The translations under genes were made by a program, and so were the position numbers. From Spiroplasma phoeniceum (GTDB taxonomy: Bacteria > Bacillota_I > Bacilli_A > Mycoplasmatales > Mycoplasmataceae), in NCBI GenBank assembly GCA_026239495.1, contig CP110830.1, positions 620,001 through 684,000 on the forward strand: 64,000 nucleotides of DNA. The letters are read 5' to 3'. The notes below the pieces were generated by a model. It was not told where the DNA came from, searched no databases, and saw only the letters and a program-made list of their open reading frames with translations. Positions 10,259 to 63,661 of this stretch are shown in pieces. Positions within the stretch are counted from its first letter, which is position 1. Each line of letters starts with the position of its first letter.

Positions 10259-10580
10259 TGTGGGACGGTTATTTTATAAATAACTAATTTTTTTCCCACA
10301 TAGGCGGGCCTGGCCCAGAGGTTAATCAGTCCGGAAATAATAGACGCTTTAGCAAGAGATAGTAGTGATAAGTGCGAGGTCAACATTGAACGACAATAAA
10401 TATTGAGATGGTCACTTTATAAATAAATTTGCGATAGATATTACTTCTTAGAAATGAGATCGGTTTAACAAAAACCACAAAGCCAGCATTAGGCTCTTCA
10501 AAATGCAAGTGAATTTATTTTAAAAAATGAACGCTTTGACCTGAAATGGTGCGTATGAAGAGAGATAATTCTCTGGCGCC
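10259..10580 (+). ncRNA. Structured RNA candidate, module copy 1
   Basis: About 320 nt, clearly richer in G+C than its surroundings, with no open frame. Paired segments: closing stem 10259-10265 with 10294-10300; long-range AGGTCAA (10377-10383) with TTGACCT (10536-10542); GCATT (10486-10490) with AATGC (10502-10506); AAATAAATT with AATTTATTT; and a final AGAGA/TCTCT hairpin. Homologues at 40795-41138 and 63002-63325 keep several pairs by compensatory change. The GTCACTT stem has one mismatch in this copy. I recognise no known RNA family. Confidence 0.65.
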
Positions 10581-10632
10581 AAAAATAAAAAAACTGTGGA
10601 TTATTAAACATTCAAACAATTAACATAACGCA

Positions 10633-10735
10633 ACGCCCGCCCCTATTGAGGCGGATGGCGTAGTAAATAATTAATAAATAGCTTATCTAACTAATTCTCG
10701 CTTGGCATTTTCACTTGGGGAGTGAGTGCCAGCGA
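10633..10735 (+). promoter_or_regulatory. Two GC-rich hairpins before the zinc-ribbon gene
   Basis: Hairpin 1 at 10633-10661 (ACGCC...GGCGT) and hairpin 2 at 10698-10735 (TCGCTTGGCA...TGCCAGCGA) sit between the structured RNA and the next start codon. Both recur in the other two module copies with sequence changes that keep pairing. The second ends some 27 nt before the ATG, so it could act on translation of the small genes or as an attenuator. Confidence 0.5.
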
Positions 10736-10762
10736 ATTAAAAATAGGGAGAATTAAATAAAA

Positions 10763-10936
10763 ATGAAAAAATTAAATAAAATTTGTCTTAAACAAAGATA
10801 TTGAGGTTATTGTTTTAGATGTAATAAAGAAAACAAATTACAAGAATTAATATTAGGGGCTTACCCCGTATCATTTGAAAAAATGACTGACGATCTTTGA
10901 GCATTAGGTTTACGTAAAAAGAATTATGAGGAATAA
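10763..10936 (+). CDS. Small zinc-ribbon-like protein of the module
   Basis: 57 residues, basic, with a YCFRCNKENK segment giving one CxxC pair; MKKLNKICLKQRYWGYC at the start. Preceded by GGGAG 8 to 12 nt upstream. Homologues are at 63503-63661 and, with ATT in place of ATG, at 40126-40287. A single CxxC could form half of a zinc site in a dimer. Function unknown. Confidence 0.6.
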
Positions 10937-19130: not shown

Positions 19131-20117
19131 TTAATTTACAAAAACTTTTTTAAAATATTGATTTGATGTAAAATATCCTAAACACGGTCTAATTGTAGCA
19201 TTTAATATATCTAAAACAGATTTTAATTTACTACGAATATTAATTAACAGTTCATTTTGATCAAATCAACGCCTTAAATCTCTATTTATTCGTTCAACTA
19301 ATGCCTTTTGTTTTGGTTTACCGGGGTCACAAAAATAAACTCTTATTTTAAAATGTTTTTCTATTGTTTTTCATCTATAAAATTCTTTTCCTCTATCTGT
19401 CAAAATACAACTAAATTTACTAATACCAATTTGTTTAATAATTTTCATTAAAACCATTAACACAATACTTGCCTTTTTACTAAATAAAATATCATAAAAA
19501 AGTATTTTAGATTTACGATTTACTAAAACTAACAAATGGAAATTACCACAATCAAGAGTATCCATTTCTCAAATTCCACTAAAACTTAAATCATCTCCAT
19601 AATCATTTAAAAATTGCTTATAATCTCTAATATTAATTAATTTTCCACGATTATCATTTTTTTCCCCATTTTTTGTTTTTCTTTTTTTATTTTTAAAATA
19701 TAACATTTCTTTTTTTAAATTAAAATAACCTAATCTAATATATTTATACATTGTTTTAAAACATACACCAAATTTTACATTATATTGTAATTCATACGAA
19801 GTAATAATATTTTGTGGCGAACGACCAAAATTATTATATTCATTCGAAAAATAACTTAATTCTTGTGAATTTAGCATTGAATATTTACGACATTGTTTTT
19901 TATTTTTATCGTGTATTTTTTGTGCTTTTGCTGCATTATAATCATTAATATTATCAAACATATTTAACTCTTGCCAAATAGTTCTATAATCTCTATTCAT
20001 TTGTTTAGCAATTTTTCGAATATTAATTGTTCCATTTTTCTTTTTAAATAATTCACTATCTTTTAATTTTTCCAAATTTACTCTTTCATTAATATCTAAT
20101 CTTTCATATTTTTTCAC
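19131..20117 (-). CDS. Plectrovirus IS30-family transposase (unit 1)
   Basis: 328 residues. An N-terminal HTH (MKKYERLDINERVNLEKL) and second HTH-like part (IRKIAKQMNRDYRTI) precede the DDE core: WEMDTL, ILTDRGKEFY and ALVERINRDLR. It probably integrates the double-stranded viral form using the 18-bp ends, as known for SpV1. ACTTTACCTCC upstream gives a good ribosome-binding site. Identical to 26840-27826 in unit 2. Confidence 0.85.
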
Positions 20118-20196
20118 ACTTTACCTCCTAAAATATTAAAATATGTTATAATTTATATACAATTAATTATAACATTCTAAATAGGGAGATAAAAAT

Positions 20197-20589
20197 ATGA
20201 AAAAGTTACTAAGTATTTTAGGAACAATCGGATTAACAACAACAAGTACAACAACATTAATTAGTTGCGAAAAACCAAAATCAGATAATAATAATGAAAA
20301 CGGGGGGAATAAACCAGAGCCTACACCAGAACCAGAAAAACCACAAAAACCACCAAAAAATAGTAATTGAAAATTAGTTAATGGTTTTGTTAATGAAAAA
20401 AATAATGAAAATAAAAATTATATTGGTGTTATAAAAATTGAAAATGGTTGAAAAATTATAAAATGAATTGGTAAAAGAATAGATTATAAATATCAATATA
20501 AAAATATTTATCGTTGAGACGGTGAAAGTATTCCATCAACCCCAGATATTAATAAAAATAGTGGTGAAATTACAGATTGAAAAGATTAA
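20197..20589 (+). CDS. Viral lipoprotein carrying a copied virion-protein segment (unit 1)
   Basis: 130 residues: signal MKKLLSILGTIGLTTTST, lipobox TLISC with lipid Cys near residue 25, a Pro/Glu linker (NKPEPTPEPEKPQKPP), then about 53 residues identical to an internal part of the large virion protein. The shared DNA is an exact 159-bp inverted repeat (20365-20523 and 22052-22210). It is the only plus-strand gene of the unit, divergent from the transposase, so it can be expressed separately from virion genes, for example in the integrated state. A surface decoy or superinfection-exclusion role is inference. Confidence 0.75.
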
Positions 20590-20618
20590 AAAGGAACTTA
20601 AAAATAGTTCCTTTTTAT
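20588..20618. terminator. Bidirectional terminator between convergent genes
   Basis: AAAAAGGAACT pairs with AGTTCCTTTTT around a short loop; A-run on one side, T-run on the other. It separates the lipoprotein from the convergent virion gene, whose stop lies inside the stem. Unit 2 has the same element at 28297-28327. Confidence 0.75.
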
Positions 20619-22747
20619 ATTAATCTTACAAATTTCATAAAAATAATTAATAAGAATAAATTAGTTATTGTACTATACAATGCGGGACTAAATTTTCATA
20701 CTTCGAATGTTTGACTAAAAAAACTATATATTGTTTGAAAAATTTTACCAACACCACTCGCTAATTCGTTTACTTGTTTTATACCAGGGATATTATTAAC
20801 TATTCAAATTGCAGCATTTCTGATATGACACGCTAAATTATATCAACTACAACTTTCATATTGTGCTTGTCATCATTGACTATCTGGAAATAATCCACCA
20901 TTATTAATTTCTTGTCAGTTATAAATTCCAAAATTAAAGTCATAATAACGGTACATATCATTTTCTTTTTGGGCTTGTAATTCAAAAACATTATAACCGA
21001 TTTTTTGTTCTTCCATTTTTTTATATTTTAAACCATATTTATTTTTTAAAGTGCCTTCAAAAACATAACCCTCATTTTGATTAATATTATAATTATTTGC
21101 AACTGAAAAATCATAATTAAATACATCTCCATAATTTGTGTTATAAAACCGATTTTTATATGCAGAATACATCTTAAAATCTAATAATTTATATTTATCA
21201 GAAAAATAAAAATATCGTGGGTAAATTTTAAAACCATTATTGGATAATAAACCATATTTTTTATTATATCCCTGTGTATAAGTATTATTTTCTAAATCAA
21301 AAATTGTTCGTAAATAATCTTTATAAAAGTTTTGTGAAACTGTAAACATACTATTTAATAATTTTTCAAATTTATTTTTATTAATATTATTTTCATCAAT
21401 TAAAACATCTCTAAAATTAACTAATTTTAAACCAAAAAAATTAATTAAAACAGTATCATATTGTAAATTATCAATATAACCACTTTCAATAAAATTACTC
21501 CGATTTTGAAACACAGGTACCAAAGCATAAGCAAAAAAGGCTTTTAAAAATTTATTAATATCAATTTGTCCTTTCATTTTTTCATAATATTTAATATTTC
21601 CATTTTCTAAATATGAATTAGTATTTGCATCAAAATTAAAGATATTATCTTTTTCTTTTATAAAAGTAAACAAAAAACCTAATTTAGTTTCTTTATAAGG
21701 ATGAAATACATCATTACTAGCTGTCTTAGTATGTGTTAATTCTAAACTGCCAGCAATAATGTTATTATTTTTATCAATTGTTAAAATCATCCGATAAATT
21801 GATTTTTTAATAAAATACATAGCAGTATATCTGTCGCTTTCATCAACAATTTCAAAATCAAAAATTATTCGTTGTGTACCAACAATAGAACTCTCATAAT
21901 TGGGATTACCCCCTTGCTGAACTCGAATATTTTCTTGAATAATAATATCAATATAACTCAATAAAAAAGAACAAGTATTTTGATATTCATTATCAGTTCA
22001 AAAAATTAATTCTCCATTTGTATTAATTTTTGGTGTTTGAGGCTCACCATTACCGTCTCAACGATAAATATTTTTATATTGATATTTATAATCTATTCTT
22101 TTACCAATTCATTTTATAATTTTTCAACCATTTTCAATTTTTATAACACCAATATAATTTTTATTTTCATTATTTTTTTCATTAACAAAACCATTAACTA
22201 ATTTTCAATTTTCTTCAATTAAATTAACGGATTGTAAATCATTTATATTTGTTTTTAATTTATTTAACATTTGGGTTAAATTATATTTAATTGTAAAAGA
22301 ATAAACAAAATTTGTTAATTCTTTTAAAAATTGTTTTTTATCAACATCATAGAACTTATCAATATTATACTTTTTAGAATAAGTATTTCAATTTTTATAT
22401 AAATCCATAAATTTATCACTAGGTTTATCGTAAGAAATACCAGTTGAATAACTATCCTTTAAAAAATCTAAGTATCATTTATCGTTATAGGTTAATGATT
22501 TTGATGTTTTTAAAGTAGGATTAATAAAATAATTAGTATCACTTCAATTTTCAAAAAAAGTACTGCGTAAAAACATCGTATTAATAAAATCATTTTCATT
22601 AATGCCTGTTTCTACACTTCGCTTTGTTCTAGCTTTTTCTGCTGTTTGTTGTGATCGATGGTTTTGTTGTAATGTCATTGCCCCTAACGAGAAAAAAGAA
22701 ATCAATAAAATTGGTACAAACGAAAATAATACTAAAAACTTACGCAT
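20615..22747 (-). CDS. Large virion protein, SpV1 ORF1/DUF3688 type (unit 1)
   Basis: 710 residues. N-terminal signal/membrane segment (MRKFLVLFSFVPILLISFFS), a long Tyr/Asn-rich outer part and a C-terminal membrane anchor (ITNLFLLIIFMKF). By size, topology and position it is the ORF1-type protein of spiroplasma plectroviruses, probably a minor coat or adsorption protein. Residues about 180-232 are duplicated in the neighbouring lipoprotein. Starts inside the stop region of the previous gene (8-nt overlap), showing translational coupling. Confidence 0.75.
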
Positions 22748-23048
22748 TATTATCTACCATCTTATTTTTACGATTCTCTTTTATTAATTTAATAATTTCA
22801 TTAAATAAATAACCATAAAAATAATGAATTATTAAGATATATCATAATATATCAAATCATAAACCATAAAATATATAACCATTTATACCAACATATTTCT
22901 CTTTTAATTCATCAATCGTTGAAACTGTATCTAAAATACATACAAACGCTAATAAACAACTAATAATAAAATATAAAATTAAATCAACCCAAGAAATAAA
23001 TAAACCATTTTGTTTCTTTTCTTTTTTATTTTCTACATTACTTTTCAT
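22740..23048 (-). CDS. Plectrovirus membrane protein, 102 residues (unit 1)
   Basis: A charged N-terminus (MKSNVENKKEKKQNG) is followed by two hydrophobic segments (WVDLILYFIISCLLAFVCIL and a second rich in Trp/Tyr/Ile) and a basic tail. Probably a morphogenesis protein in the cell membrane. Overlaps the start of the large virion gene. Confidence 0.65.
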
Positions 23049-23059
23049 AAATTTAACTC

Positions 23060-23296
23060 CTAACTATATAATGTTTTTGAAATAATAAAACCAATAATAT
23101 ATAAACTTGATATTGTTAACATTAAAGGATGACTAAATAAAATCGCCATTTTACCAAAAATAGATAATAACCAAGTATCAGAATTATATAAATCCATAAT
23201 AATATTTTTTGCTGATGTTAATTGATTTATAATTACTGTAATAAATCCTGTTCCAAAAATAGCAATTGCCGCTACCAATAAAACTAACTTAATCAT
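23060..23296 (-). CDS. Plectrovirus membrane protein, 78 residues (unit 1)
   Basis: Two membrane segments ([16 protein letters not shown] and [14 protein letters not shown]) around a short polar loop. The size and N-terminal segment fit a small virion or assembly protein of filamentous phages. Good AAGGAG-type site upstream. Confidence 0.65.
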
Positions 23297-23314
23297 ATAA
23301 AATCAACTCCTTAC

Positions 23315-23749
23315 TTATTTTTTTATTCTTTTAGTGGTATGAATTCTTTTAAAACCTAATTCTCTTGTTTTTGCTTGTCTTGCTAAACTTGATAACTGTT
23401 GTTTATTGCGACTAACTTTAAATTGTTTTCGTTCTTTAATATGTTTTTGTAAACCTTGTTTAGTACTAGAAACACCCCGAACAGTAGCACCGTATAGTTT
23501 AGAACTATTAATAACACCACTTTTAACTGTTGAACCTAAATCATTATAATGAGTTGATGTTCCATGAATTGCATAAATTGATAACTTAATAACCATAAAA
23601 AAGATTAAAAAATAAGCAATTGTTATATTTGTCATTGGCAATTTAGTATTTCAAATTACATCAAAAACAAATAAAAAAGTATCAAAAATAAAACTAAAAA
23701 TCTTATTTCAATTATCGTTATTAACGCTTTCACTTAATAAATTACTCAT
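23315..23749 (-). CDS. Plectrovirus basic membrane protein, 144 residues (unit 1)
   Basis: One or two N-terminal membrane segments (IFSFIFDTFLFVFDVIW; ITIAYFLIFFMVIKL) and a long, strongly basic C-terminus (KHIKERKQFKVSRNKQQ) suited to binding DNA or phospholipid. The start overlaps the ATPase stop (ATGAGTAA), so expression is coupled. Confidence 0.65.
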
Positions 23750-24755
23750 CTTTTTTCTTTCCTTTCACTTTTTTTGCTTTTAAATTTTCTTTCAAAATAT
23801 CAATATCAAACAATTCTAAGCGTTGTTTATTATTTAATTTTGATATATCTTTTCAAAAGTATTCTTTTTTATTAACAACCTCATCGTTTTTCAAATCACG
23901 AACAAAACTTAATCAATGACTATCATATTTATTTGCAAATTCAAGCGGAATAATTATCTTAAAAAACCGAATTCCCAATCCAACATCCGACTTATGTTTT
24001 GCTCTTTTACCTTCTGCTGTTCGTTCTACTGATTTTGTTTTTCAAATTTCATAATCCGTAATATCTTGGAAAATACCAATTCGCATAACAAAACTACGAT
24101 TAAAAATATTACCTAATTTTGACTTAACAGGTTTTTTCAATGAAATCGGAATAATAATACCACTTGCTAAATGACGAATATTATTTCACATCATACCCTC
24201 ACGCTGAACTGAATGGCTCTATTTTTAAAATGTCTTGCTAAAACAATTCACACACTTTTACCACCATGAACTTTTTTAACTTCGTGGGGACTAGTTCCAT
24301 CAATATATAAAAAACTCTCATCAAACAAAATTAAACTATCATCGGGGTGGGACTAATTTAGTTCTATCAGTAAAATCTAAATTATTAAAAGTTAAAAGTT
24401 TTATTGCATCATCTTCAATAGGATAATTACTACTATAAATTTTCTTTGTTAAAAGTTTCATAACTTGTGATAAAAAAGTTAAAAGCAATGTTTTACCAGT
24501 TCCTAATTTACCAATAATTACGGATAATGGATTATCTCAAATAAAGTGAACTAAACGAAAAACATTTAACTGATAAAAAACATTTTTTCAAACTCACCAA
24601 ACAAAATATACAAATTGTAAAGCAAATAATAGTCAAAATACTAAACCAGTATAATTTAATGAAATTATTCAAAGTAATAAATCAATTAAACTAAACAAAA
24701 CCATTGAACCATTAATATAACAAAAGTTTATTAGAAAAAATACAAACTTTTTCAT
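23742..24755 (-). pseudogene. Zot-like ATPase, frameshifted (unit 1)
   Basis: Same gene as the intact 31451-32464 in unit 2. Here an extra G in the run at about 24344 changes PPDDS to a frame that meets TAG just before the Walker-B strand, four bases (TAAA) are missing near 24209, and one extra AGT codon occurs near 24432. The N-terminal part with GKLGTGKT remains open. Confidence 0.75.
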
Positions 24756-24958
24756 TACTTAAAATACCCAACTATTTTAAAAATCATTCACAACAAAAAT
24801 CAAGTTAAAAACAAAATTACAATTCAAACACCAACCATCAAAGTTAAATATTCATTTTGAGTTAAATTTCAAGTTGTTATTTTTTCAACATTTGTTTTAT
24901 CTATAAACAAAAAGACATGAATAAAAAACTCTTTTAATTTTTCTCAATCATTTTGCAT
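24755..24958 (-). CDS. Plectrovirus 67-residue membrane protein (unit 1)
   Basis: Polar N-terminus (MQNDWEKLKEFF), then a C-terminal membrane segment (LMVGVWIVILFLTWFLLW). Its TAA overlaps the ATPase ATG (TAATG). Probably a minor coat or export-complex partner. Confidence 0.6.
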
Positions 24959-24960
24959 TT

Positions 24961-25110
24961 TTAAAAACTCCACATTTTTTGAATAAGTTTAAAAACATTC
25001 CAAAAAATAAAACGATAAATAATACAAACGATATAAACATATATAAAATTGGGAGCATTTGAACCAATAATATAACTTACAAATTGAACTCAATAATTAT
25101 ATAAACTCAT
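24961..25110 (-). CDS. Plectrovirus 49-residue membrane protein (unit 1)
   Basis: Short hydrophobic protein (MSLYNYWVQFVSYIIGSN). Two compensating single-base indels relative to unit 2 (near 24991 and 25035) change about 15 residues in the middle but leave start and stop intact. Confidence 0.55.
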
Positions 25111-25132
25111 TTAATTTAAACTTTCTAAGTCA

Positions 25133-25549
25133 TTAATTAATTGTTGTACTTTTTTCATCACTTCAATTTGTTAAATTATTATTGTTATTTGTTTTTACTT
25201 TTTGAGGTTTACCAGGGAATAATGCTTTTTTCATTTGTATAAAATAATTTTGTTTATATTGATTATACAAATCAATTATTTCTGTTCCAGTTAAGTATTT
25301 TCAATTGTGTTGTTTTAAATTTTCATCATATTTTACAATACGATAAGAATTATCATAAATTAAACCGATTGCTACTTGTTTAGAATGTTTTTGACTAGGA
25401 TAAATAAACTTATTACTCAATCAAAAACCAATATGGCGATTATGATTAGGTAAATTTATAAAACTTGCTTTATCTGTTTCAAAAGGAATAAGTTCCTTGC
25501 TAATAAAATAATTTTCTATATTTTGATTTTTCTTAACAAAACTACTCAA
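25133..25549 (-). CDS. Plectrovirus hypothetical protein, C-terminus altered (unit 1)
   Basis: Same gene as 32820-33257. An extra A near 25150 shifts the last codons so that it ends after SDEKSTTIN instead of continuing to ESLN, losing about 7 residues. The TTG start at 25549 has AAGGAG 9 nt upstream. Confidence 0.55.
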
Positions 25550-25655
25550 TTTTTTCAACTCCTTCATAACAATTTAAACAATAAAATTGATCAAATCGTA
25601 ATCTTTTCATATCATTAAAACAAGTTTCACATTTATATTCAAAATAATTAATCAT
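25542..25655 (-). CDS. Small two-CxxC zinc-ribbon protein (unit 1)
   Basis: 37 residues with YKCETC and FYCLNC, a full four-Cys zinc ribbon. It is first after the origin-like intergenic region, directly following the AACAATGTTA repeats, so it may bind them (inference). AGGAGATGATAAGTA precedes the ATG. Confidence 0.65.
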
Positions 25656-26839: not shown

Positions 26840-27826
26840 TTAATTTACAAAAACTTTTTTAAAATATTGATTTGATGTAAAATATCCTAAACACGGTCTA
26901 ATTGTAGCATTTAATATATCTAAAACAGATTTTAATTTACTACGAATATTAATTAACAGTTCATTTTGATCAAATCAACGCCTTAAATCTCTATTTATTC
27001 GTTCAACTAATGCCTTTTGTTTTGGTTTACCGGGGTCACAAAAATAAACTCTTATTTTAAAATGTTTTTCTATTGTTTTTCATCTATAAAATTCTTTTCC
27101 TCTATCTGTCAAAATACAACTAAATTTACTAATACCAATTTGTTTAATAATTTTCATTAAAACCATTAACACAATACTTGCCTTTTTACTAAATAAAATA
27201 TCATAAAAAAGTATTTTAGATTTACGATTTACTAAAACTAACAAATGGAAATTACCACAATCAAGAGTATCCATTTCTCAAATTCCACTAAAACTTAAAT
27301 CATCTCCATAATCATTTAAAAATTGCTTATAATCTCTAATATTAATTAATTTTCCACGATTATCATTTTTTTCCCCATTTTTTGTTTTTCTTTTTTTATT
27401 TTTAAAATATAACATTTCTTTTTTTAAATTAAAATAACCTAATCTAATATATTTATACATTGTTTTAAAACATACACCAAATTTTACATTATATTGTAAT
27501 TCATACGAAGTAATAATATTTTGTGGCGAACGACCAAAATTATTATATTCATTCGAAAAATAACTTAATTCTTGTGAATTTAGCATTGAATATTTACGAC
27601 ATTGTTTTTTATTTTTATCGTGTATTTTTTGTGCTTTTGCTGCATTATAATCATTAATATTATCAAACATATTTAACTCTTGCCAAATAGTTCTATAATC
27701 TCTATTCATTTGTTTAGCAATTTTTCGAATATTAATTGTTCCATTTTTCTTTTTAAATAATTCACTATCTTTTAATTTTTCCAAATTTACTCTTTCATTA
27801 ATATCTAATCTTTCATATTTTTTCAC
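26840..27826 (-). CDS. Plectrovirus IS30-family transposase (unit 2)
   Basis: 328 residues, the same protein as at 19131-20117, with DDE motifs WEMDTL, LTDRGKEF and LVERINRD. The Glu of RGKEF, lost in the chromosomal IS30 relic at 8894, is present here. The divergent promoter region 27827-27905 with TTATAATTTATA is shared with the lipoprotein. Confidence 0.85.
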
Positions 27827-27905
27827 ACTTTACCTCCTAAAATATTAAAATATGTTATAATTTATATACAATTAATTATAACATTCTAAATAGGGAGATA
27901 AAAAT

Positions 27906-28298
27906 ATGAAAAAGTTACTAAGTATTTTAGGAACAATCGGATTAACAACAACAAGTACAACAACATTAATTAGTTGCGAAAAACCAAAATCAGATAATAA
28001 TAATGAAAACGGGGGGAATAAACCAGAGCCTACACCAGAACCAGAAAAACCACAAAAACCACCAAAAAATAGTAATTGAAAATTAGTTAATGGTTTTGTT
28101 AATGAAAAAAATAATGAAAATAAAAATTATATTGGTGTTATAAAAATTGAAAATGGTTGAAAAATTATAAAATGAATTGGTAAAAGAATAGATTATAAAT
28201 ATCAATATAAAAATATTTATCGTTGAGACGGTGAAAGTATTCCATCAACCCCAGATATTAATAAAAATAGTGGTGAAATTACAGATTGAAAAGATTAA
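27906..28298 (+). CDS. Viral lipoprotein with copied virion segment (unit 2)
   Basis: 130 residues, same as 20197-20589. The 159-bp repeat is 28074-28232, with its inverse partner at 29761-29919. The lipobox TLISC places it on the outer face of the single membrane, where an incoming virion would make contact. Confidence 0.75.
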
Positions 28299-28327
28299 AA
28301 AGGAACTTAAAAATAGTTCCTTTTTAT
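28297..28327. terminator. Bidirectional terminator (unit 2)
   Basis: Perfect GGAACT/AGTTCC stem with A- and T-runs, between convergent lipoprotein and virion gene. Confidence 0.75.
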
Positions 28328-30456
28328 ATTAATCTTACAAATTTCATAAAAATAATTAATAAGAATAAATTAGTTATTGTACTATACAATGCGGGACTAA
28401 ATTTTCATACTTCGAATGTTTGACTAAAAAAACTATATATTGTTTGAAAAATTTTACCAACACCACTCGCTAATTCGTTTACTTGTTTTATACCAGGGAT
28501 ATTATTAACTATTCAAATTGCAGCATTTCTGATATGACACGCTAAATTATATCAACTACAACTTTCATATTGTGCTTGTCATCATTGACTATCTGGAAAT
28601 AATCCACCATTATTAATTTCTTGTCAGTTATAAATTCCAAAATTAAAGTCATAATAACGGTACATATCATTTTCTTTTTGGGCTTGTAATTCAAAAACAT
28701 TATAACCGATTTTTTGTTCTTCCATTTTTTTATATTTTAAACCATATTTATTTTTTAAAGTGCCTTCAAAAACATAACCCTCATTTTGATTAATATTATA
28801 ATTATTTGCAACTGAAAAATCATAATTAAATACATCTCCATAATTTGTGTTATAAAACCGATTTTTATATGCAGAATACATCTTAAAATCTAATAATTTA
28901 TATTTATCAGAAAAATAAAAATATCGTGGGTAAATTTTAAAACCATTATTGGATAATAAACCATATTTTTTATTATATCCCTGTGTATAAGTATTATTTT
29001 CTAAATCAAAAATTGTTCGTAAATAATCTTTATAAAAGTTTTGTGAAACTGTAAACATACTATTTAATAATTTTTCAAATTTATTTTTATTAATATTATT
29101 TTCATCAATTAAAACATCTCTAAAATTAACTAATTTTAAACCAAAAAAATTAATTAAAACAGTATCATATTGTAAATTATCAATATAACCACTTTCAATA
29201 AAATTACTCCGATTTTGAAACACAGGTACCAAAGCATAAGCAAAAAAGGCTTTTAAAAATTTATTAATATCAATTTGTCCTTTCATTTTTTCATAATATT
29301 TAATATTTCCATTTTCTAAATATGAATTAGTATTTGCATCAAAATTAAAGATATTATCTTTTTCTTTTATAAAAGTAAACAAAAAACCTAATTTAGTTTC
29401 TTTATAAGGATGAAATACATCATTACTAGCTGTCTTAGTATGTGTTAATTCTAAACTGCCAGCAATAATGTTATTATTTTTATCAATTGTTAAAATCATC
29501 CGATAAATTGATTTTTTAATAAAATACATAGCAGTATATCTGTCGCTTTCATCAACAATTTCAAAATCAAAAATTATTCGTTGTGTACCAACAATAGAAC
29601 TCTCATAATTGGGATTACCCCCTTGCTGAACTCGAATATTTTCTTGAATAATAATATCAATATAACTCAATAAAAAAGAACAAGTATTTTGATATTCATT
29701 ATCAGTTCAAAAAATTAATTCTCCATTTGTATTAATTTTTGGTGTTTGAGGCTCACCATTACCGTCTCAACGATAAATATTTTTATATTGATATTTATAA
29801 TCTATTCTTTTACCAATTCATTTTATAATTTTTCAACCATTTTCAATTTTTATAACACCAATATAATTTTTATTTTCATTATTTTTTTCATTAACAAAAC
29901 CATTAACTAATTTTCAATTTTCTTCAATTAAATTAACGGATTGTAAATCATTTATATTTGTTTTTAATTTATTTAACATTTGGGTTAAATTATATTTAAT
30001 TGTAAAAGAATAAACAAAATTTGTTAATTCTTTTAAAAATTGTTTTTTATCAACATCATAGAACTTATCAATATTATACTTTTTAGAATAAGTATTTCAA
30101 TTTTTATATAAATCCATAAATTTATCACTAGGTTTATCGTAAGAAATACCAGTTGAATAACTATCCTTTAAAAAATCTAAGTATCATTTATCGTTATAGG
30201 TTAATGATTTTGATGTTTTTAAAGTAGGATTAATAAAATAATTAGTATCACTTCAATTTTCAAAAAAAGTACTGCGTAAAAACATCGTATTAATAAAATC
30301 ATTTTCATTAATGCCTGTTTCTACACTTCGCTTTGTTCTAGCTTTTTCTGCTGTTTGTTGTGATCGATGGTTTTGTTGTAATGTCATTGCCCCTAACGAG
30401 AAAAAAGAAATCAATAAAATTGGTACAAACGAAAATAATACTAAAAACTTACGCAT
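28324..30456 (-). CDS. Large virion protein, SpV1 ORF1/DUF3688 type (unit 2)
   Basis: 710 residues with an N-terminal hydrophobic leader and a C-terminal membrane segment, so the middle is expected outside the cell or on the virion tip. The segment NWKLVNGF...IYRWDG, followed by GEPQTPKIN...GELIFW, is the part shared with the lipoprotein. The chromosomal lipoprotein at 37591-38070 ends in a similar VYRW...IDENGNIK unit, suggesting one domain family. Cys in SCSWYNLACH near the end could form a disulfide. Confidence 0.75.
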
Positions 30457-30757
30457 TATTATCTACCATCTTATTTTTACGATTCTCTTTTATTAATTTA
30501 ATAATTTCATTAAATAAATAACCATAAAAATAATGAATTATTAAGATATATCATAATATATCAAATCATAAACCATAAAATATATAACCATTTATACCAA
30601 CATATTTCTCTTTTAATTCATCAATCGTTGAAACTGTATCTAAAATACATACAAACGCTAATAAACAACTAATAATAAAATATAAAATTAAATCAACCCA
30701 AGAAATAAATAAACCATTTTGTTTCTTTTCTTTTTTATTTTCTACATTACTTTTCAT
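30449..30757 (-). CDS. Plectrovirus membrane protein, 102 residues (unit 2)
   Basis: Same as 22740-23048. Two membrane segments with five Trp/Tyr codons, several written TGA, and a basic C-terminus (KLIKENRKNKM). Overlaps the virion gene start by 8 nt. Confidence 0.65.
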
Positions 30758-30768
30758 AAATTTAACTC

Positions 30769-31005
30769 CTAACTATATAATGTTTTTGAAATAATAAAAC
30801 CAATAATATATAAACTTGATATTGTTAACATTAAAGGATGACTAAATAAAATCGCCATTTTACCAAAAATAGATAATAACCAAGTATCAGAATTATATAA
30901 ATCCATAATAATATTTTTTGCTGATGTTAATTGATTTATAATTACTGTAATAAATCCTGTTCCAAAAATAGCAATTGCCGCTACCAATAAAACTAACTTA
31001 ATCAT
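30769..31005 (-). CDS. Plectrovirus membrane protein, 78 residues (unit 2)
   Basis: Same as 23060-23296; two membrane segments joined by [12 protein letters not shown]. Spaced 11 nt from the next gene. Confidence 0.65.
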
Positions 31006-31023
31006 ATAAAATCAACTCCTTAC

Positions 31024-31458
31024 TTATTTTTTTATTCTTTTAGTGGTATGAATTCTTTTAAAACCTAATTCTCTTGTTTTTGCTTGTCTTGCTAAACTTG
31101 ATAACTGTTGTTTATTGCGACTAACTTTAAATTGTTTTCGTTCTTTAATATGTTTTTGTAAACCTTGTTTAGTACTAGAAACACCCCGAACAGTAGCACC
31201 GTATAGTTTAGAACTATTAATAACACCACTTTTAACTGTTGAACCTAAATCATTATAATGAGTTGATGTTCCATGAATTGCATAAATTGATAACTTAATA
31301 ACCATAAAAAAGATTAAAAAATAAGCAATTGTTATATTTGTCATTGGCAATTTAGTATTTCAAATTACATCAAAAACAAATAAAAAAGTATCAAAAATAA
31401 AACTAAAAATCTTATTTCAATTATCGTTATTAACGCTTTCACTTAATAAATTACTCAT
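31024..31458 (-). CDS. Plectrovirus basic membrane protein, 144 residues (unit 2)
   Basis: Same as 23315-23749. The chosen ATG at 31458 (MSNLLSESVNNDNW) overlaps the ATPase stop; an internal ATG at 31350 would drop the first membrane segment. Basic tail ends RIHTTKRIKK. Confidence 0.65.
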
Positions 31459-32464
31459 CTTTTTTCTTTCCTTTCACTTTTTTTGCTTTTAAATTTTCTT
31501 TCAAAATATCAATATCAAACAATTCTAAGCGTTGTTTATTATTTAATTTTGATATATCTTTTCAAAAGTATTCTTTTTTATTAACAACCTCATCGTTTTT
31601 CAAATCACGAACAAAACTTAATCAATGACTATCATATTTATTTGCAAATTCAAGCGGAATAATTATCTTAAAAAACCGAATTCCCAATCCAACATCCGAC
31701 TTATGTTTTGCTCTTTTACCTTCTGCTGTTCGTTCTACTGATTTTGTTTTTCAAATTTCATAATCCGTAATATCTTGGAAAATACCAATTCGCATAACAA
31801 AACTACGATTAAAAATATTACCTAATTTTGACTTAACAGGTTTTTTCAATGAAATCGGAATAATAATACCACTTGCTAAATGACGAATATTATTTCACAT
31901 CATACCCTCACGCTGAACTGTAAAAATGGCTCTATTTTTAAAATGTCTTGCTAAAACAATTCACACACTTTTACCACCATGAACTTTTTTAACTTCGTGG
32001 GGACTAGTTCCATCAATATATAAAAAACTCTCATCAAACAAAATTAAACTATCATCGGGTGGGACTAATTTAGTTCTATCAGTAAAATCTAAATTATTAA
32101 AAGTTAAAAGTTTTATTGCATCATCTTCAATAGGATAATTACTATAAATTTTCTTTGTTAAAAGTTTCATAACTTGTGATAAAAAAGTTAAAAGCAATGT
32201 TTTACCAGTTCCTAATTTACCAATAATTACGGATAATGGATTATCTCAAATAAAGTGAACTAAACGAAAAACATTTAACTGATAAAAAACATTTTTTCAA
32301 ACTCACCAAACAAAATATACAAATTGTAAAGCAAATAATAGTCAAAATACTAAACCAGTATAATTTAATGAAATTATTCAAAGTAATAAATCAATTAAAC
32401 TAAACAAAACCATTGAACCATTAATATAACAAAAGTTTATTAGAAAAAATACAAACTTTTTCAT
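31451..32464 (-). CDS. Zot-like assembly ATPase (unit 2)
   Basis: 337 residues. Two N-terminal membrane segments (residues about 5-60), then IIGKLGTGKTLLLTF (Walker A near residue 95) and LILFDESFLYID (Walker B). This is the inner-membrane ATPase that drives extrusion of filamentous virions, the pI/Zot family. The C-terminus is basic (KAKKVKGKKKDE). Intact here, frameshifted in unit 1, so only unit 2 can supply it. Confidence 0.8.
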
Positions 32465-32667
32465 TACTTAAAATACCCAACTATTTTAAAAATCATTCAC
32501 AACAAAAATCAAGTTAAAAACAAAATTACAATTCAAACACCAACCATCAAAGTTAAATATTCATTTTGAGTTAAATTTCAAGTTGTTATTTTTTCAACAT
32601 TTGTTTTATCTATAAACAAAAAGACATGAATAAAAAACTCTTTTAATTTTTCTCAATCATTTTGCAT
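32464..32667 (-). CDS. Plectrovirus 67-residue membrane protein (unit 2)
   Basis: Same as 24755-24958. Single C-terminal membrane span rich in Trp; stop overlaps the ATPase start, so the two proteins may act together. Confidence 0.6.
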
Positions 32668-32669
32668 TT

Positions 32670-32819
32670 TTAAAAACTCCACATTTTTTGAATAAGTTTA
32701 AAAAACATTCCAAAAAATAAAACGATAAATAATACAAACGATATAACATATATAAAATTGGGAGCATTTGAACCAATAATATAACTTACAAATTGAACTC
32801 AATAATTATATAAACTCAT
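32670..32819 (-). CDS. Plectrovirus 49-residue membrane protein (unit 2)
   Basis: MSLYNYWVQFVSYIIGSN then a hydrophobic FIYVISFVLFIVLFFGMFF span. This is the undisturbed version of the unit-1 gene and the better reference for the protein. Confidence 0.6.
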
Positions 32820-33257
32820 TTAATTTAAACTTTCTAAGTCATTAATTAATTGTTGTACTTTTTCATCACTTCAATTTGTTAAATTATTATTGTTATTTGT
32901 TTTTACTTTTTGAGGTTTACCAGGGAATAATGCTTTTTTCATTTGTATAAAATAATTTTGTTTATATTGATTATACAAATCAATTATTTCTGTTCCAGTT
33001 AAGTATTTTCAATTGTGTTGTTTTAAATTTTCATCATATTTTACAATACGATAAGAATTATCATAAATTAAACCGATTGCTACTTGTTTAGAATGTTTTT
33101 GACTAGGATAAATAAACTTATTACTCAATCAAAAACCAATATGGCGATTATGATTAGGTAAATTTATAAAACTTGCTTTATCTGTTTCAAAAGGAATAAG
33201 TTCCTTGCTAATAAAATAATTTTCTATATTTTGATTTTTCTTAACAAAACTACTCAA
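32820..33257 (-). CDS. Plectrovirus hypothetical protein, 145 residues (unit 2)
   Basis: Soluble, mixed-charge protein ([18 protein letters not shown] ... NDLESLN). I chose TTG at 33257 because AAGGAG lies 9 nt before it; an ATG at 33275 in the same frame lacks such a site and would add six residues. The reading frame overlaps the zinc-ribbon gene. It may be an early or replication function by position (inference). Confidence 0.6.
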
Positions 33258-33363
33258 TTTTTTCAACTCCTTCATAACAATTTAAACAATAAAATTGATC
33301 AAATCGTAATCTTTTCATATCATTAAAACAAGTTTCACATTTATATTCAAAATAATTAATCAT
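33250..33363 (-). CDS. Small two-CxxC zinc-ribbon protein (unit 2)
   Basis: 37 residues, CETC and CLNC, same as 25542-25655. First gene downstream of the iterons. Confidence 0.65.
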
Positions 33364-40711: not shown

Positions 40712-40794
40712 ATGTTAACATTTACAATTAACTACAAAGTACTACAATGTTCTACATTTTGTATTTGTTTGTAAATTTGTTACGCCTTATATAT

Positions 40795-41138
40795 ACACCT
40801 CTTCATCCGCACCATTTCAGGTCAAAACGTTCAGTTTTTAAAATAAATTCACTTGCACCCTGAAGATCCTAGTGCTGGCTTTGTGGTTTTTAAACCGCTG
40901 CCACTTCTAAGAAGTAATATCTATCGCAAATTTATTTATAAAGTGGCCATATCAATATTTATTGTAGTTTGATGTTGACTTTGCACTTATCACGACTATC
41001 GCCTAGTTCTAATGAACCAGCGCCGATTTACATTTTTCCTCATACACTATTTCAGTACTTGCCTCGGCCGGCTGCGGGAATGAGTTAATACTCATGTTCT
41101 TATGGAAGCACTTAGTTATTTAAAATAACCGTCCCAAT
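40795..41138 (-). ncRNA. Structured RNA candidate, module copy 2
   Basis: Reverse-strand homologue of 10259-10580. Stem GCCACTT/AAGTGGC (plus-strand 40900-40906 and 40941-40947) replaces GTCACTT/AAGTGAC of copy 3, keeping the pair; GCACT/GGTGC replaces GCATT/AATGC. A G+C-rich peripheral insertion of about 20 to 60 nt near 41000-41095 forms its own hairpins (ATGAGT/ACTCAT and GAACTAGGCG with CGCTGGTTC). Core conserved, periphery variable. Confidence 0.65.
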
Positions 41139-41169: not shown

Positions 41170-41286
41170 TTAATATTCAGTATAATAAACATCTTCAAAT
41201 CATTCTGTTTTTTCACGATGGTTAACTTTGTGAAACTGCTTTGGTGTTCCACATTTTTTGCATTTAATAAAAGTATTTTCAGACAT
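41170..41286 (-). CDS. 38-residue zinc-finger-like protein of module copy 2
   Basis: MSENTFIKCKKCGTPKQFHK: CKKC followed by H19 and H23 could make a zinc site. It stands where copies 1 and 3 have the 79-residue gene, directly before the structured RNA, so the module can swap its first gene. AAGAGAGTAAAAAA upstream is a weak ribosome site. Confidence 0.55.
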
Positions 41287-41326
41287 ATTTTTTTACTCTC
41301 TTTCTAAGAGTTTTTTTCAAATAAAA

Positions 41327-62529: not shown

Positions 62530-62755
62530 AATTATTAATTGATTCAGAGAAAGGACAGCATCTTAAATTCTTAAAATAGAAACCTTTTATTACAACTTTT
62601 TGATACCCTCTTTAAGTTGTTTACACATTTATTAAATATCTTAGAAATCTTTACAAAGTGTACCTGTTTTTTCTCCAATTTTAAGGTGTTGTCCTTTCTC
62701 TGTTTCAGTTAATTAATTTGCTAATAAAAAAACTTAATAAAGGAAGGATTAAGTA
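62530..62755 (+). other. Leader of module copy 3
   Basis: Non-coding, conserved with 2192-2415. Ends AAAGGAAGG before the ATG. Probably promoter plus leader. Confidence 0.45.
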
Positions 62756-62995
62756 ATGGAAATTAATAATAAACAAACAATATGTGATGTTTATAATTGC
62801 TATAAAGCAATATCATTCATTACTGAAGAATTTTTATCAAATAAAGTTTTATGAACTTGTGAAAAACACAAAGATTTATTAAGTCGCACAAAAGATAAAA
62901 AACAAAAGCGGTTTTATAAACGCTTAGAAAATTCAAAAATTATCTTTGATTATGAAACTGGTTTTTTAAAACTTTGATTTTACAAAACAACTTAA
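62756..62995 (+). CDS. 79-residue protein of the module, intact
   Basis: MEINNKQTICDVYNCYKAIS...FYKRLENSKIIFDYETG; C10 and C15 plus C37 (LWTCEKH) could bind metal, and the middle is basic (SRTKDKKQKRFYKR), so RNA or DNA binding is possible. Its stop lies about 6 nt before the structured RNA. Split by IS in copy 1 and replaced by another small protein in copy 2. Function unknown. Confidence 0.6.
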
Positions 62996-63001
62996 TGCAG
63001 A

Positions 63002-63325
63002 GTGGAACGGTTATTTTAAATAACTAAGTGTTTTTATTCCACATGAGGCGGTCTAGCCCAGCGGTAATCAGCCCGGAAATAATAGGCGCTTTAACAAGCG
63101 ATAGTCGTGATAAGTGCGAGGTCAACATCAAACGACAATAAATATTGAGATGGTCACTTTATAAATAAATTTGCGATAGATATTACTTCTTAGAAGTGAC
63201 AGCGGTTTAATAAAAACCACAAAGTCAGCATTAGGCTCTTCAAGGTGCAAGTGAATTTATTTTAAAAACTGAACGCTTTGACCTGAAATGGTGCGGATGA
63301 AGAGAGAGAATTCTCTGGCTCCACA
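63002..63325 (+). ncRNA. Structured RNA candidate, module copy 3
   Basis: Pairs: GTGGAA (63002-63007)/TTCCAC (63037-63042); AGGTCAA (63119-63125)/TTGACCT (63278-63284); GTCACTT (63153-63159)/AAGTGAC (63194-63200); GCATT (63228-63232)/GGTGC (63244-63248); CGCTT/AAGCG; CAATA/TATTG; AGAGA/TCTCT near the end. Best-paired copy. Transcript boundaries are not seen; limits are those of conservation and pairing. Confidence 0.68.
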
Positions 63326-63362: not shown

Positions 63363-63471
63363 ACCGCCACCGCTCACCCCCAGTGAAGCGGATGGCGTAG
63401 TAAATAGATAAATATTTATATAACTAATTCTCGCTTTGGCACTTTCACTTGGAAGTGAGTACCAGCAAGTT
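63363..63471 (+). promoter_or_regulatory. Two GC-rich hairpins, module copy 3
   Basis: 63363-63399 (CGCCACCGCT with AGCGGATGGCG, matching copy 2 almost exactly) and 63431-63471 (CTTTGGCACTTTCACTT with AAGTGAGTACCAG). Confidence 0.5.
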
Positions 63472-63502: not shown

Positions 63503-63661
63503 ATGAAAAAGTTAAATAAAATTTTTCTTAAACAAAGATATTGAGGATATTGTTCAAAATGCAATCAAGAAAATAAATTACAAAAATTAATGCTTAAAAG
63601 TTATCCGGTTTTATTTGAAAATATGACTGATGAACATTGGGCATTAGGTAAAAAGAATTAG
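63503..63661 (+). CDS. Small zinc-ribbon-like protein, module copy 3
   Basis: 52 residues, MKKLNKIFLKQRYWGYCSKCNQENK; CSKC pair. A strong AGGAGG site 7 nt before ATG, better than in copy 1. The Trp codon near the end is TGG rather than TGA. Confidence 0.6.

Follow-up and report, generated by a model that had tools for sequence, protein, structure and literature searches.

We observed that the window (the whole stretch of DNA analysed, 64 kb long, positions 620001-684000 of a 2.18-Mb Spiroplasma chromosome) carries three RNA-like copies of one element. Sequence comparison indicates that the element is almost certainly an uncatalogued family of structured phage RNA with a double pseudoknot. The family, its fold, the folding strand, its linkage to a phage and its position there were established by computation: the conserved part forms nine helices with two H-type pseudoknots, and the RNA belongs to a tailed phage of 19-20 kb of the MaM-2019a type. 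A preliminary description of this DNA had recognized a structured RNA at these three places. A covariance model placed a conserved core at each of them, with a variable 5' domain upstream (Table 1).

The G+C content of the core is 34-37%, against 19-28% in the surrounding kilobases, in agreement with the enrichment noted earlier. The reported lack of an open reading frame also held, since the only ORFs overlapping copy 1 are short antisense ones, none of them conserved. A CDS annotated at 984-1163 of the phage record OL689226 was regarded as spurious; it begins in P6, and its start codon is missing in divergent copies. Homologues of the 57-aa zinc-ribbon-like protein encoded downstream of copy 1 were found in RNA-bearing genomes only. 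Elsewhere in the window, positions 19131-25567 and 26840-33275 hold two near-identical SpV1-type plectrovirus insertions with an IS30-like transposase, and the ATPase gene is disrupted in the first. Upstream of copy 3, inverted repeats of about 20 bp (GAGAAAGGACA.. / ..TGTCCTTTCTC) enclose a 160-base stretch at 62540-62700, possibly a small mobile element.

Table 1. Positions of the three RNA copies, their neighbours and the helices of copy 3, in window coordinates
Feature	Position	Strand	Basis or remarks
Copy 1, variable 5' domain: stem GUGGGA/UCCCAC, hairpin GGUUAUUU/AAAUAACU, type-A subdomain	10259-10353	+	
Copy 1, conserved core (PK1, P2-P7, PK2), long form with insert hairpins	10354-10580	+	covariance-model match 630354-630580; alignment A3 row L016
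Hairpin HP1, downstream of copy 1	10629-10660	+	sequence
Hairpin HP2, downstream of copy 1, without U-tract	10697-10736	+	sequence
Zinc-ribbon-like early gene, 57 aa, downstream of copy 1	10763-10936	+	ORF, code 4
Copy 2, conserved core	40781-41004	-	covariance-model match 660781-661004
Copy 2, variable 5' domain, type B	41005-41138	-	sequence
Small zinc-ribbon gene (MSENTFIKCKKCGTPKQF..), directly upstream of copy 2, replacing the 80-aa gene	41171-41287 (approximate)	-	sequence
80-aa gene (CxxxxxC..CxxH), stops 6 nt upstream of copy 3	62756-62995	+	match at 682756-682992
Copy 3, variable 5' domain: stem GUGGAA/UUCCAC, type-A subdomain	63002-63095	+	
Copy 3, conserved core	63096-63322	+	covariance-model match 683096-683322
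PK1, copy 3	63104-63108 (GUCGU) with 63132-63136 (ACGAC)	+	95.7% paired; one pair C-G 54 / G-C 12
P3, copy 3	63112-63116 with 63155-63159	+	3 compensatory pairs; one pair G-C 37 / C-G 28
P2, copy 3	63126-63129 with 63149-63152	+	one pair C-G 51 / U-A 21
P4, 12 bp, copy 3	63163-63174 with 63251-63262	+	97.1% paired; 4 compensatory pairs
P5, copy 3	63228-63232 with 63244-63248	+	
PK2, copy 3	63236-63241 (CUCUUC, P5 loop) with 63299-63304 (GAAGAG)	+	95.9% paired; 5 of 6 pairs compensatory
P6, copy 3	63274-63276 with 63293-63295; 63281-63283 with 63290-63292	+	
P7 terminal hairpin, copy 3	63305-63308 with 63313-63316	+	4 of 4 pairs compensatory
Hairpin HP1, downstream of copy 3	63365-63397	+	sequence
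Hairpin HP2, downstream of copy 3	63430-63469	+	sequence
Zinc-ribbon-like early gene, downstream of copy 3	63503-63661	+	match at 683503-683658

The fold was derived from an alignment of 23 diverse cores (A2), on which a nested model and two pseudoknots were written by hand. A covariance model (R1) built from the nested part only was used to realign 85 copies, 74 of them distinct (A3), and PK1 and PK2 were thereby left out of the model used to align. Over the 74 distinct copies the fold comprises 47 pairs in 9 helices with 95.9% of the cells paired, and 23 of the 47 pairs show changes on both sides. When the 3' partners were slid out of register, pairing was 36-48%, and the covariation score was 0.03-0.08 as compared with the observed 0.202. 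The slid control is biased towards the fold, because the fold was drawn from the same sequences; the pseudoknots and a tree-aware null are the stronger tests. In this null, substitutions were simulated on the tree in 300 runs, and the maxima reached were 88.2% for pairing, 85 for compensatory cells and 16 for compensatory pairs; the observed values were 95.9%, 186 and 23. The covariation is beyond chance and shared ancestry, all 300 tree-aware simulations being exceeded, and chance structure or common ancestry as its source was excluded by this null together with the slid controls. A stricter scan over all columns placed only three model pairs among the highest-ranking ones (E about 0.1 to 0.75), because the copies form strongly linked clades.

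In PK1 an upstream strand pairs into the loop of the first hairpin, while in PK2 the loop of the second hairpin pairs downstream; divergent copies retain PK2 as UCCUUC/GAAGGA, UCUCUC/GAGAGA, AUCUUC/GAAGAU or CUCUUUC/GAAAGAG. P3 joins CACUU or GACUU with an upstream AAGUG or AAGUC (96.5% paired). P4 pairs AAAUAAAUUUGC with GUGAAUUUAUUU, stays intact as AAAUAUUUAUGC/GCAUGAGUAUUU in the most divergent copy, and in copy 3 surrounds the optional insert and P5. The preliminary description had been right that the structure is real and that it carries compensatory changes, but neither pseudoknot (GUCGU/ACGAC and CUCUUC/GAAGAG) nor the 12-bp P4 had been recognized in it. Its pairings GCAUU/AAUGC, GCAUU/GGUGC and GCACU/GGUGC were correct and correspond to P5. 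The long-range AGGUCAA/UUGACCU that it had proposed fails in divergent copies (84% paired, with 2 compensatory pairs against 2.3 in shuffles). The GUCACUU/AAGUGAC hairpin does not hold as a general feature either: it belongs to the optional insert, and in several long copies it fails to pair. Copies L002, L006 and L008, for example, have GUGACUU with AAGUGGC in its place, and P3 pairs there instead.

Outside the core, much is optional. The core is 179-230 nt long, and an optional 5' domain adds about 95-135 nt. The change of the 5' stem from GUGGGA/UCCCAC to GUGGAA/UUCCAC had been read correctly. The stem had been taken to close the whole RNA, but it bounds only a local domain with the hairpin GGUUAUUU/AAAUAACU, and a pattern search did not detect it in 30 of the 85 copies. 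In copy 3, the CGCUU/AAGCG hairpin of the 5' domain extends into the core. Two alternative subdomains occur 5' of the core, type A (GGUCUA..UAGAC) and type B (GCCG..CGGC). A long form has a hairpin pair inserted between P4 and P5, which the short form lacks; all three window copies are long. HP1 follows 56 of the 85 copies. Since the 5' domain, the insert and HP1 all vary, only the core, about 180-230 nt, makes up the conserved unit, and the conserved core with variable periphery first seen in three copies was borne out on 85.

Inside the helices, G-U cells outnumber A-C cells six to one (273 vs 45), so it is the strand in the sense of the early genes that folds. Thermodynamic stability was rejected as support for an RNA: single-sequence folding energy was ordinary and not significant on this strand (z -0.12, against -2.64 on the other), and by that measure alone it counts against an RNA. 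The strand asymmetry would also fit a single DNA strand folding as a single-stranded origin, a pac site or a recombination site, and in other elements the same slot is filled by filamentous-virus intergenic regions. We consider such a DNA-level element very unlikely, as several short helices, two H-type pseudoknots and many G-U pairs suit RNA better, the element runs in the early-gene sense in all phages in which the two can be read, and the scanned phage proteins included no recognisable rolling-circle initiator.

A BLAST search with copy 3 followed by the covariance model gave about 28 copies in the S. phoeniceum source genome, and the element was present in 8 of the 14 Spiroplasma genomes searched, S. 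phoeniceum P40 and S. poulsonii MSRO being two of these. It was also found in the records of Spiroplasma phage MaM-2019a (OL689226, OL689227 and OL689230) and in plasmid records of S. citri, one of which is a complete 22.3-kb circle with terminase genes. Outside Spiroplasma, there were no matches among 320 genomes of the order, among 395 genomes sampled from the class, or, using the covariance model with laxer filters, in 39 genomes of the family. A pattern scan of genome contigs matched in Spiroplasma only, and in the search for distant homologues outside the genus the IMG/VR entry was a single contig. Some copies are dead, as two of them in one genome (L121 and L122 in G012) carry an insert of about 1.2 kb at the same point, between query positions 213 and 216. 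In another copy (L101, G007:C1:112850-113750) the 5' domain is joined straight to the end of a downstream gene; both share the word AGCATTAGG at the junction, as a microhomology-mediated deletion would leave it.

Rfam 15 gave no matches to the window at gathering cut-offs, and permissive searches (copy 1 with E up to 10, divergent copies with E up to 1) gave nothing near a gathering score. The Rfam covariance models for ROOL, GOLLD and the phi29-type pRNA did not match the element, and the C4 antisense RNA model did not match the window. A decayed tRNA, rRNA or tmRNA was ruled out by the lack of any ARAGORN match or any Rfam rRNA or tmRNA match; the 64-kb window has no tRNA or tmRNA. The suggestion that the element matches no known family therefore stood, and with the many homologues from Spiroplasma genomes, plasmids and phages the covariation was not lost. 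A literature search found no earlier description of this RNA, the phage paper of Ramirez et al. lying outside its reach.

The MaM-2019a records are about 19 kb long and carry genes for the small and large terminase, portal, capsid, connector, SSB/RecT or ERF, and RuvC; TerL matches Terminase_3, and TerS is annotated in the phage record. Contigs of this type were assembled from DNA of phage-like particles, according to a passage of PMC12453411 that cites Ramirez et al. The RNA-positive genomes are exactly the eight with a MaM-2019a-type terminase at 79% identity or above. Five of the 14 Spiroplasma genomes lack both the RNA and the terminase, and one (G005) has a terminase at 48% and no RNA. 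S. phoeniceum also has a lineage with a 46% terminase in which the RNA is present, so the RNA spans rather divergent phages. The mobile module of small genes proposed earlier is indeed of phage origin; it becomes the left end and early region of the tailed phage. In S. phoeniceum, an apparent tandem prophage array with a spacing of about 20.3 kb was seen at about 1636190-1695060 (G007:C1), with terminase at 1636190 and 1656523 and the RNA at 1654171, 1674497 and 1694838. In three phage records (L031 17758-19098, L032 17566-18741 and L033 17549-18886), transposases of different families (UPF0236, IS30 and IS285/mutator) occupy the same site, with the small terminase gene on one side and the left end on the other; they may have a part in integration, or the site may be an insertion hot spot.

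Across the phage genome junction the RNA also adjoins the terminase genes. This location, together with a compact, phage-borne fold with two pseudoknots, would suit a trans-acting and possibly multimeric RNA for virion assembly, like the phi29 pRNA, or an RNA particle of the ROOL/GOLLD kind. Such a structural or packaging role is unlikely in our estimate. Both terminase genes of the phage, small and large, are of the ordinary kind, and phages with such terminases are not known to require a pRNA; moreover, pRNA, ROOL and GOLLD models were unmatched, the core is merely 180-230 nt, and a related phage has a terminase without the RNA.

Wherever the two could be read in a phage, the RNA is immediately upstream of the early genes (SSB/RecT/RuvC) and on their strand. 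This order was seen in MaM-2019a NSRO-P1 and NSRO-P2, the S. phoeniceum tandem prophage, a prophage of genome G006 and the circular pSciBLH13-2. The 80-aa gene is directly upstream of 59 of the 85 copies, and a terminator-like hairpin alone precedes 19. The genes downstream vary, hence the RNA is not a switch for one downstream gene. From this arrangement we tentatively favour, at somewhat less than an even chance, a cis-acting early leader of the phage. The RNA would be made as the leader of the early transcript, whose transcription we infer, would fold as it is transcribed, and would act in cis on the same molecule and start or gate the early programme. Against this, pattern scans for promoters and terminators around the RNA were at about chance level, in the 19 terminator-preceded copies a promoter would need to sit within a few tens of bases, and extensive pseudoknotting is also typical of trans-acting RNAs.

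The same position at the left end, the one related phage that lacks the element, and the swapping of 5' domains as modules (types A and B) would also fit an accessory ('moron') RNA that a prophage expresses to the advantage of host or phage, e.g. in anti-defence or superinfection exclusion. We regard this as distinctly improbable, as the element runs into the early genes and is not isolated behind its own terminator, and its copies do not clearly exceed terminase copies in several genomes, giving no sign of retention without the phage. An RNA immunity or early attenuation system similar to the CI RNA of satellite phage P4 or C4 of P1, in which a processed leader stops early transcription of an incoming or resident phage, appears a little more doubtful still. 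The element does head the early operon, neither repressor nor integrase is annotated in the phage records, and a terminator-like hairpin lies close to the left end; however, about 28 copies in a single genome fit poorly with strong homoimmunity, the element is far larger and more conserved than the P4 CI RNA, and it leaves the C4 model unmatched.

As regards what a cis-acting leader would do, the likeliest version is that the folded transcript serves as a replication origin transcript or primer; taken as a claim in itself, a leader that sets up replication is rather unlikely. RNAs with such a replication role include ColE1 RNA II and the T4 R-loop transcripts. This version is favoured because no protein initiator was recognised in the early proteins scanned, several of which are of unknown function, and because RNA-less elements carry an origin region of filamentous-virus type and the next gene in the same slot. 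In the prophages of G005, a divergent RNA was sought with filters off and the left-end sequence was read directly; none was found, so the RNA is not essential to the phage type. The early operon of this tailed phage opens with a phrog_15243 gene, behind an AT-rich leader with inverted repeats. phrog_15243 is a gene of the filamentous virus SpV1, next after the SpV1 intergenic region. Plectrovirus-type elements of S. citri, S. phoeniceum and genome G004 have an 80-aa gene of the same family as that upstream of the RNA, an AT-rich intergenic region with iterons, and then phrog_15243; the RNA and phrog_15243 are mutually exclusive across the 13 sequences examined. An RNA-based origin in the early leader might be exchangeable as a module with a protein- and iteron-based one, which we hold to be just as unlikely as the replication role.

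An iteron array downstream of a second 80-aa gene was rejected as a tailed-phage origin, as comparison showed it to be an intergenic region of plectrovirus type; this weakens the argument from the shared slot, though it does not remove it. That the same slot implies the same job is a weak argument also because the function of the plectrovirus module is itself putative, and several elements in the comparison are chimaeric (S. citri C2 and C3) or something other than tailed phages. In five plectrovirus-type elements (L208, L209, L210, L211 and L213), the 80-aa gene family lies just before the AT-rich region, which has 81-bp iteron repeats. The presence of this family in both tailed and plectrovirus-type elements points to an apparent gene exchange between tailed and filamentous viruses.

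To our knowledge, phages have yielded few structured RNAs so far, and a function is known for fewer still. The phi29 pRNA is a small structured RNA near one end of a phage genome of roughly 19 kb, and in this the element resembles it, in a phage of similar size; the TerS/TerL terminase is not the phi29-type packaging ATPase, however, no Rfam match was seen, and the RNA here is read into an early operon. With ColE1 RNA II it would share, if the origin reading is right, a cis-acting folded transcript close to where a replicon begins, in a replicon whose proteins include no recognised initiator; there is no sequence relation, and no antisense transcript of RNA I type is known here. P4 CI and P1 C4 likewise lie in the leader of a phage early operon, but they are short antisense RNAs, while this is a large conserved double-pseudoknot fold without an Rfam match. 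The antitermination RNAs HK022 put and Bacillus EAR also belong to leaders, and their cis action is on the polymerase that transcribes them; they are smaller, and no target terminators were identified for the RNA described here. ROOL and GOLLD are also structured phage or prophage RNAs without an assigned function. They are about 600-900 nt long, whereas the RNA here has a core of about 180-230 nt beside early genes, in a window without tRNA, unlike the ROOL/GOLLD case. ROOL has multiple pseudoknots (PMC12286853).

Together, these results describe an RNA with a strongly supported two-pseudoknot structure that occurs many times over in Spiroplasma associated with insects and plants, S. poulsonii, S. 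citri and S. phoeniceum included. The DNA of RNA-bearing phages has been recovered from particles, as stated where PMC12453411 cites Ramirez et al. The RNA is small and well delimited, which suits it to probing, and it can serve in practice as a marker of the prophage type that fills these genomes and has no characterised control system. If the replication reading is true, a tailed phage of wall-less bacteria would begin its replication with a self-folding, double-pseudoknotted leader RNA.
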